Shown here: positions 59,872 to 61,982 of the stretch, one piece after another
How the letters are laid out: the number at the start of each line of letters is the position of its first letter
How positions within the stretch are numbered: the first letter of the stretch is position 1
Assembly (NCBI GenBank): GCA_945877355.1
Contig: CAMCRT010000001.1
Coordinates: forward strand, 1-64,000
Source: an uncultured Mitsuokella sp.
GTDB lineage: Bacteria; Bacillota; Negativicutes; Selenomonadales; Selenomonadaceae
Direction: 5' to 3'
Length of the DNA: 64,000 bases
Notes under the pieces: generated by a model
Seen by the model: only the letters and a program-made list of their open reading frames with translations
Told to the model about the DNA's origin: nothing
Databases searched by the model: none
Program-made: the position numbers and the translations under genes

Positions 59872-59900
59872 TTGAACTTTTCAGTTTGAGTGTGTATAAT
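59872..59900 (+). promoter_or_regulatory. Promoter before the FtsZ-like gene
   Basis: TTGAAC (59872-59877) and TATAAT (59895-59900), 17 bp apart. A second TATTAT-like element follows at 59921. The 59680-59870 stretch upstream holds no gene I can support. Confidence 0.65.
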
Positions 59901-59940: not shown

Positions 59941-60015
59941 ATGTATTCGGAGAAGCTCGCGCTTGATTGGGTGAAGGTCGTCCTGGCCCTGTCGGCTGTT
60001 GTTCTTTTTTCTTGA
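59941..60015 (+). CDS. Possible 24-residue leader peptide
   Basis: ATG TAT TCG ... TTT TCT TGA encodes 24 residues (MYSEKLALDWVKVVLALSAV plus four), with AGGGGAAG 7 bases before the ATG. It lies between the promoter at 59872 and the FtsZ-like gene. It has a hydrophobic end and may be a small membrane peptide, a translation leader, or chance. Too short to judge by family. Confidence 0.35.
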   Translation: MYSEKLALDWVKVVLALSAVVLFS

Positions 60016-60070: not shown

Positions 60071-61213
60071 ATGGCGACAAAAACGGAAATCGTAAAACCG
60101 AAGATAAAGATCAAGGTGTTCGGCATCGGTGGCGGCGGCAATAATGCCCTTGCCCGCATGAAGACGTCGGAGGACCTTGACCTGGAGCTCGTCGCCATCA
60201 ACTCCGATAAGCGTCAGCTCTCCTTTGTGGAACGCCCCGATTTGCACATCCTGCAGATCGGCGAGTCCCTCACGGGCGGCCGGGGCACAGGCGGCCGGGT
60301 GGAGCTCGGCGACCAGGCGGCACGCCAGGAGGCGGCAAAGCTCCGGGAGGCCATGGCAGGAGCGGATCTCCTCTTCATCACGGCAGCCATGGGCGGCGGC
60401 TTTGGCACGGGGGCGGCCCCTGTCATCGCCCGCATCGCAAAGGAGGCGGGCATCCTCACGGCAGGTGTCGTGACGGAGCCCTTCAGCTTTGAGGGCAATC
60501 GCAAGAAGCGCCTCGCGGAGGCCGGCATCACGAGGATGCAGTCCCAGATGGATGCGCTCATCGTCGTGTCGAACGACAATCTCTCAAAGCTCCCGGAGAA
60601 CCACAACATGACCCTCTCCAATGCCTTCAAGGCGGCGGATGCGGTGCTGAACCAGGCGGTGAGCTGCATCGCAGAGCTGATACTCAAGACTGGCTTTATC
60701 AATGTGGACTTTGCGGACGTGACGACCATCTTCCGCCACAGCGAGTCCAGCGATGCGCTCCTCGGCATCGGCCGGAGCAAGCGCAGCGCGGTGGATGCGG
60801 TGAAGGCGGCGGTGACGAGCCCGCTGTTCTCCCGGAGCCTCGAGGGTGCCCGGGCGGTCATACTGAACCTCACGGGGGACAGCGAGCTCAGCATGTACGA
60901 TGTGGATGAGGCGACCCACTTCATCGCCGACAGCACGGACGACAATGTGGATCTCATCCTGGGTACGGTCATCGACGATACGATGGACGGCGAGGTCCAG
61001 GCGACCATCATCGCCATGGATTTCGCCGACAGCACGGTGCTGAAGGCGCCGACGGTGACGGTGCCGGAGAAAAAGGAAGCGGCGCCCACGCCGAAGATCG
61101 ACCTGGCCCCGCCGAGCTTCATGACGAACAAGAAGGGAAAGGATGCGCAGGGAGCCTTTGCAATCCCGGCGTTCCGGCTGGCACCCGATACGGAGGGGCC
61201 AGAGAAAAAATAG
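60071..61213 (+). CDS. FtsZ/tubulin-family GTPase paralogue
   Basis: 380 residues. FtsZ traits: VFGIGGGGNNALARM (GTP-phosphate loop), AINSDKRQL, NLDFADV-like T7 loop present as NVDFADVTTIF (catalytic Asp), and the domain order of FtsZ. Differences: the tubulin signature is GGGFGTG at 108-114 with Phe111 instead of Thr, the loop after the second strand reads GESLTGGRGTGGRVELGD in place of GKGLGAGANP, and the C-terminal tail ends IPAFRLAPDTEGPEKK rather than the canonical FtsZ peptide. Not in a division gene cluster. Possibly a second tubulin-like polymer. GTP binding is likely, hydrolysis uncertain. Confidence 0.84.
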   Translation: MATKTEIVKPKIKIKVFGIGGGGNNALARMKTSEDLDLELVAINSDKRQLSFVERPDLHILQIGESLTGGRGTGGRVELGDQAARQEAAKLREAMAGADLLFITAAMGGGFGTGAAPVIARIAKEAGILTAGVVTEPFSFEGNRKKRLAEAGITRMQSQMDALIVVSNDNLSKLPENHNMTLSNAFKAADAVLNQAVSCIAELILKTGFINVDFADVTTIFRHSESSDALLGIGRSKRSAVDAVKAAVTSPLFSRSLEGARAVILNLTGDSELSMYDVDEATHFIADSTDDNVDLILGTVIDDTMDGEVQATIIAMDFADSTVLKAPTVTVPEKKEAAPTPKIDLAPPSFMTNKKGKDAQGAFAIPAFRLAPDTEGPEKK

Positions 61214-61220
61214 GTGGATT

Positions 61221-61982
61221 TTGAGCAAGCTAGGCAGATTCTCTCGGACAGAGCTTCTTTTGGGCGAGGATGGCATGGAGCGCCTGAAGGGCGCGACGGT
61301 GGCGGTCTTTGGCGTGGGGGGCGTGGGCTCCTTTGCGGCGGAGGCACTGGCGCGATCTGGCGTCGGTCATCTCGTCCTCATCGACAATGACACGGTCTGC
61401 ATGACGAATATCAATCGTCAGATCCATGCGACCACAAAGACCATCGGCAAGGGCAAGACCCTCGTCATGAAGGAGCGCATCCATGATATCAATCCGGAGG
61501 CGGAGGTCACGACCATCGACGGCTTCTTCCTGCCGGACAGTGCGGCGGACTTCTTCCCAGTGCATTACGACTACGTCATCGATGCCATCGATACGGTCTC
61601 GGGAAAGATCGGCCTCGTGCTGGCCTGCCGGGAGCGAGGCATCCCCATCATCTCCTGCATGGGGGCGGGCAACAAGCTGGATCCGACGAAGTTCAAGGTC
61701 ATGGATATCAGCCGTACCACGGTGGACCCCATCGCGCGGGTCATGCGGAAGAAGCTCAAGGAGCTCCGCGTGCCGAAGCTCAAGGTGGTCTGCTCCACGG
61801 AAAAGCCCCTGAAGATCAGCCAGAGCGGCTGCGGATCGAATTGTATCTGCCCGCCGGGCAGCGCCCGGAACTGCGACAGGCGGCGGTCCGTGCCCGGGAG
61901 CATTTCCTTCGTGCCCTCCGTGGCAGGGCTCATCCTGGCCGGCGAAGTCATCCGGGATATTTCCGGTGTGGAAAAAGCATAG
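61221..61982 (+). CDS. tcdA: tRNA threonylcarbamoyladenosine dehydratase (ThiF/E1-like)
   Basis: 253 residues from TTG (MSKLGRFSRTELLLGEDG); AGGTGG stands close before it. E1-like fold: VFGVGGVGSFAAEALARSGVGHL (GxGGxG), LIDNDTVCMTNINRQIHA (the N-R-Q motif of ATP binding), DYVIDAIDTVSGKIGL, and a C-terminal CGSNCICPPGSARNCD Cys-rich stretch specific to TcdA/CsdL. It forms cyclic t6A in tRNAs decoding ANN. It starts seven bases after the FtsZ-like stop; functional linkage is not obvious. Confidence 0.93.
   Translation: MSKLGRFSRTELLLGEDGMERLKGATVAVFGVGGVGSFAAEALARSGVGHLVLIDNDTVCMTNINRQIHATTKTIGKGKTLVMKERIHDINPEAEVTTIDGFFLPDSAADFFPVHYDYVIDAIDTVSGKIGLVLACRERGIPIISCMGAGNKLDPTKFKVMDISRTTVDPIARVMRKKLKELRVPKLKVVCSTEKPLKISQSGCGSNCICPPGSARNCDRRRSVPGSISFVPSVAGLILAGEVIRDISGVEKA

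Follow-up and report, generated by a model that had tools for sequence, protein, structure and literature searches.

The window, a stretch of 64,000 nucleotides from an uncultured Mitsuokella sp., carries the gene for a second FtsZ (FtsZ2), which is restricted to the lineage Selenomonadaceae within the Negativicutes and accompanies the canonical FtsZ (FtsZ1) there. FtsZ2 is ordinary in kind, being an FtsZ paralogue; what is unusual is that it is family-wide, found only there and altered at sites where substitutions slow turnover. No earlier description of a Selenomonadaceae FtsZ2 was found in the part of the open-access literature that was searched. We propose that FtsZ2 would hydrolyze GTP slowly and form a long-lived polymer alongside FtsZ1, under SigH-type control in many relatives, a reading that in our judgment stands an even chance of being right.

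The ftsZ2 locus and its product

Coordinates of the features are collected in Table 1. The original prediction of an FtsZ paralogue with a GGGFGTG loop and a retained T7 aspartate agrees with the translation, with Pfam and with the relatives. The product lies above the curated cut-offs of Tubulin (PF00091, 133 bits) and FtsZ_C (PF12327, 67 bits), no further Pfam domain was found in it, and it scores narrowly above the cut-off of the ftsZ equivalog TIGR00065 (299.6 vs 295.2). It does not contain the literal tubulin signature GGGTG(S/T)G and was therefore placed as a divergent FtsZ subfamily and not as a standard FtsZ. The AlphaFold model (mean pLDDT 79.5) shows an FtsZ core of high confidence followed by a disordered tail, and its best PDB match (2rhl, TM-score 0.91 by target length) identifies the FtsZ fold. 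The closest solved structures are the FtsZ proteins of B. subtilis and S. aureus, and crystals of the Q48A and R143K mutants are found within the top 8 matches, all top matches having close scores. FtsZ2 resembles these canonical proteins in fold (TM-score about 0.9 by target length), FtsZ_C, sequence (43–44% identity), T7 Asp residues and the frame of the GTP site. It differs from them in R143K, a replaced Q48, L69R, A71T, A73G and a relaxed T109, in two residues (SSD motif) inserted behind the T7 helix, in its tail motifs and in its separate locus. Concerning other non-canonical bacterial members of the superfamily, FtsZl-1 shows no similarity to known FtsZ C-terminal domains, and FtsZl-1 and FtsZl-2 carry other architectures (Makarova and Koonin, 2010; PMC2875224), whereas FtsZ2 possesses FtsZ_C.

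Exactly two Tubulin-family genes are present in the source genome, namely ftsZ2 and a canonical ftsZ on another contig (GGGTGTG, tail DIPVWMRKK), located 3′ of murC-/ddl-like, DUF881 and DUF1290 genes. As this canonical gene occupies the division cluster, ftsZ2 is not the ftsZ of that cluster; the original prediction had placed the locus outside it and had made its reading depend on a canonical FtsZ elsewhere, and both points hold. The ThiF-family neighbor had also been recognized correctly. Specifically, tcdA is established directly 3′ of ftsZ2 on the same strand in 17 of 25 Selenomonadaceae genomes and a DMT permease upstream in 13 of 25, a conserved synteny that agrees with vertical inheritance of ftsZ2. 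In other families, no conserved neighbor upstream of tcdA was found that would mark the insertion point of the locus.

Table 1. Features of the ftsZ2 locus, in window positions
Feature	Position	Strand	Evidence and remarks
SigA-type promoter TTGAAC-17-TATAAT	59872..59900	+	Consensus scan
24-codon sORF MYSEKLALDWVKVVLALSAVVLFS	59941..60015	+	Hydrophobic microprotein family; relatives VKLDSLKIVLACLAVFLFS
ftsZ2	60071..61213	+	Complete 380-aa FtsZ paralogue; ORF translation, profiles, tree, predicted model
Arg48 (canonical Gln48, K+ site at filament interface; PMC8936486)	60212..60214	+	Q in 41/41 canonical, 0/118 FtsZ2
Arg71 (canonical Leu69)	60281..60283	+	L in 41/41 canonical; R in 95/118 FtsZ2
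T4 loop GGGFGTG, residues 108–114, with Phe111 (canonical Thr109; E. coli Thr108)	60392..60412 (Phe111 codon 60401–60403)	+	Translation
Lys145 (canonical Arg143)	60503..60505	+	R in 41/41 canonical; K in 126/127 FtsZ2
T7 catalytic loop NVDFAD, residues 211–216 (Asp213, Asp216)	60701..60718	+	Both Asp in 132/132 FtsZ2
C-terminal tail, predicted disordered	61040..61210	+	pLDDT <50 for almost all residues 324–380
Tail motifs PSFM and terminal AIPAF	61112–61123; 61160–61174	+	Terminal motif in 89/95 full-length relatives
tcdA (ThiF/E1-like)	61221..61982	+	PF00899, 142 bits; 7-nt gap, probably co-transcribed

Distribution, phylogeny and selection

Both FtsZ1 and FtsZ2 were identified in 25 of 25 Selenomonadaceae genomes (23 genera). 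In a class-wide survey of 150 genomes, the FtsZ2 profile scored 479–631 bits in all 34 Selenomonadaceae and at most 408 bits, or nothing, in the 116 others. Conservation across the Negativicutes, a question that the original prediction had raised, holds within the Selenomonadaceae (34/34) and fails in the other families of the class (0/116). Additionally, a DNA pattern for the FtsZ2-specific T7 region was scanned over GTDB contigs (84,980 species, one genome each) and matched at least 118 stretches. Among the matches listed, every title named the Selenomonadaceae, directly or under an older or wider label, and the genera were Selenomonas, Mitsuokella, Megamonas, Pectinatus, Propionispira, Schwartzia and Quinella, next to MAGs. 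A recent horizontal origin was rejected, no relative outside the family having reached a comparable score. Two FtsZs per cell are also found in archaea (FtsZ1/FtsZ2, Odinarchaeota; PMC12583498), as a pair with differing filament behavior and a SepF anchor; the archaeal pair goes back to an ancient archaeal duplication, whereas the FtsZ2 presented here was found in one bacterial family only, as a branch of its own among Negativicutes FtsZ.

All FtsZ2 sequences form a single clade (support 100/100) on a long stem of 2.27 changes per site, with G007 and G009 as the earliest splits. Several sister groups appear in both the FtsZ1 and the FtsZ2 parts of the tree, which are broadly congruent, as expected if inheritance has been vertical from the family ancestor onward. 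FtsZ2 would thus have been present already in the common ancestor of the Selenomonadaceae and retained beside FtsZ1. It is under purifying selection, with a dN/dS between the two closest genomes of about 0.13 compared to 0.14 for the canonical gene. Further FtsZ copies were also encountered. Two other Negativicutes families have a second ftsZ, in tandem in G031 (L059) and as another copy in G034 (L061); kinship of these with FtsZ2 was rejected, as they pair inside the canonical side. Very divergent copies occur in G008 and G022 (L072), and G008 also has a second FtsZ2-like copy, which nests inside the clade; the two extra copies of G008 are L071 and L058. Finally, ORFs of about 250–320 aa match the C-terminal half of FtsZ weakly (G004:C2:61482, G016:C14:8338, G018:C50:3677, G021:C9:7481).

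Remodelling of the GTPase site

Sites were counted over 118–132 usable non-identical FtsZ2 and 41 canonical sequences, in B. subtilis/S. aureus numbering. N44, G72, G108, G110, T111, N166, D187, N208, D210 and D213 are invariant in FtsZ2, D46 is kept in 115 of 118, and the filament-interface residues are likewise invariant. Of the 129 columns invariant in canonical FtsZ, 39 are altered in FtsZ2 overall. Apart from R143K, Q48 is replaced in every one of 118 sequences (by K in 53, H in 37, R in 16, others in 12), A71 is T in 110/118, A73 is G in 113/118, N25 is mostly S and M218F is among the sites fixed to a new state. At least two of Q48, L69, T109 and R143 are changed in 118/118 sequences and at least three in 109/118.

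These positions have been studied in laboratory mutants. In S. aureus, the R143K and Q48A proteins still assemble, into straight, stabilized filaments, but their GTPase is roughly 6-fold lower, while D46A, N208L, D210N and D213N abolish assembly; the residues that touch the gamma-phosphate mimic are A71, A73, G108 and T109 (PMC8936486). Substitutions of L69/L68 lower the GTPase (PMC3618327), and E. coli T108A, at the Thr109 position, gives static, non-treadmilling rings with almost no GTPase (PMC5979038). FtsZ2 shares the very residue of the first of these mutants and the positions of Q48A and T108A, and differs from the laboratory alleles in that its changes arose naturally, mostly occur together and have become fixed throughout a family. 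Since FtsZ2 is altered at the sites of published slow, assembly-competent mutants, its pattern fits the one expected from selection for slow turnover with assembly kept, although this comparison of four attenuating with four to five assembly-essential sites is small and the sites were picked after the data had been seen. What single mutations do in S. aureus, B. subtilis and E. coli may not sum in FtsZ2, compensation (A71T, A73G, N25S and others) could restore activity, and about two thirds of the sequences (82/122) keep Thr109. Moreover, a natural low-GTPase FtsZ, that of Ca. Thiosymbion oneisti, need not polymerize well in vitro (PMC8953583).

Concerning Phe111, on which the original prediction had centered, the residue recurs in a second, independent genome from the genus of the window and is thus no obvious sequencing error. 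As the mark of the paralogue it did not hold up, because most relatives keep Thr and others have V (21), A (10), F (6), L (2) or I (1). The tree implies no fewer than 16 changes at site 109, and the Phe/non-Phe distinction needs four. The common feature, as read from the alignment, is the set of changes around the gamma-phosphate (R143K, Q48 replaced, L69R, A71T, A73G), with T109F as one optional extra. The repeated changes at T109, the relaxed N25 and the faster evolution of FtsZ2 than of FtsZ1 are what would be seen if FtsZ2 were a redundant, neutrally drifting copy and the altered sites its decay. We consider this highly improbable, given retention in every Selenomonadaceae genome of the survey, a dN/dS like that of FtsZ1, and sites such as 143, 218 and 71 that are fixed to new states.

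Upstream region, tail and possible role in division

The original prediction of a promoter and a 24-residue ORF upstream of ftsZ2 was borne out for both, the promoter being sigma-70-like. A profile built from the sORF detected relatives at 43 of 126 ftsZ2 loci (e.g., L104, L113, L098), most of them 18–19 residues long and fitting (V/M)KLDSLKIVLACLAVFLFS. In the class-wide sample, every match to a DNA pattern for the sORF lay immediately 5′ of ftsZ2. Compared with G001, the sORF shows seven synonymous and one nonsynonymous differences, and its codon-position differences are 0.35/0.17/0.51. Judged by this conservation, the sORF is a real microprotein gene. A TTG...TGTATAAT element 5′ of it is kept across the aligned relatives, and a hairpin with a T-rich stretch follows it directly in 38 of the 43 loci. 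The gene of this 18–24-residue microprotein usually has its own promoter and terminator. In the window and its close relatives the hairpin terminator is absent, 55 nt separate the microprotein from ftsZ2, and the upstream SigA-type promoter probably drives sORF, ftsZ2 and tcdA together. A classic attenuation leader is not favored, because the sORF is conserved as a protein and the terminator is missing in the window's clade. No Rfam match near gathering score was found in the ftsZ2 leader.

Between the terminator and ftsZ2, an AGGA-N17-19-GAAT element was identified in 43 of 104 distinct upstream regions (34/104 by a stricter form), compared to 0–2 of about 100 ORF windows and, for the strict form, 16 of 1,713 AT-rich windows (about 1%). 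Upstream of canonical ftsZ it was found in 2 of 25 cases. The element matches the SigH motif mapped by dRNA-seq in the Negativicute Sporomusa sphaeroides (PMC12456013), and in B. subtilis a SigH site boosts ftsAZ transcription early in sporulation (PMC12421865). The sigH gene is present in 24 of 25 Selenomonadaceae genomes, the exception being an incomplete one. From these motifs, ftsZ2 of many relatives is apparently switched on by a starvation-phase (SigH-type) promoter. The element is absent upstream of ftsZ2 in the window and in its clade, where the SigH-type promoter has been lost and SigA-driven transcription of all three genes would remain.

At the end of the tail, [ILVFM][PS]xF is found in 89 of 95 full-length FtsZ2 sequences, and PxFM precedes it in about 40% of tails. 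In S. flueggei and S. felix (L097, L126), and apparently also in several genus g9 genomes, FtsZ2 stops right after the globular domain and has no tail, therefore independent tethering is not universal. A true FtsA was detected in none of the 25 Selenomonadaceae genomes, the best candidates being larger FtsA-like proteins or partial matches, while 7 of the 16 genomes sampled from other families have one. A large FtsA-like protein of about 640–970 aa occurs in most Selenomonadaceae genomes. MinC is present in every Selenomonadaceae genome examined and SepF in all genomes, usually in two copies across the Negativicutes; a link of ftsZ2 to SepF copy number was dismissed, as a pair of SepF genes is usual throughout the class. 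With no true FtsA detected, SepF is the probable partner through which the IPxF-type tail would tether most FtsZ2.

The original prediction had suggested a non-division filament or a membrane-shape factor. FtsZ2 might be such a separate filament, acting in cell curvature or in placing the lateral flagellar tuft of Selenomonas, much as CetZ acts in archaeal shape, and its own locus and promoters, its long stem and a tail unlike the canonical DIPxWM motif would suit that role. Mitsuokella and Megamonas, however, are non-motile and not crescent-shaped and still keep ftsZ2; furthermore, the longitudinal interface is conserved enough to permit mixing with FtsZ1 and most members retain a canonical-like IPxF motif, making this role unlikely in our view. 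Alternatively, FtsZ2 could act as an inhibitory or capping subunit, joining FtsZ1 filaments, poisoning their turnover and arresting division in stationary phase. The same slow-GTPase signature and SigH-type promoters would be expected of it, and the loss of the tail in one clade suits a protein acting only by joining FtsZ1. We regard this as doubtful, since the molecule looks competent for assembly on both faces, more than a capper would need, and since the tail motif is so widely conserved. Overall, the evidence leans toward a slow, division-associated FtsZ2, because the filament-interface residues are invariant, most members have the IPxF-type motif, SepF and MinC coexist with it, and the sigma-H-type promoters resemble that of B. 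subtilis ftsAZ.

As a slow, long-lived partner of FtsZ1, FtsZ2 would bind GTP and assemble, by itself or within FtsZ1 filaments, through the usual head-to-tail interface, and slow hydrolysis would make its polymer poorly treadmilling. Where the SigH-type promoter is present, FtsZ2 may stabilize the division ring, or hold it, as cells pass into slow growth. A more extensive version, of division by two FtsZs with a GTPase-attenuated, filament-stabilizing FtsZ2 under SigH in many members, a membrane microprotein as anchor or regulator, and FtsA lost, seems improbable to us. A central question of cell division is what FtsZ needs its fast GTP turnover for, and artificial mutants have been used to probe it. 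Common rumen, gut and oral bacteria have natural changes at the sites of these mutants, one of them the identical residue, beside a normal FtsZ. FtsZ2 can therefore serve as a natural test of what use a slow FtsZ may have, whether it joins the normal ring and what role it may play in slow growth.
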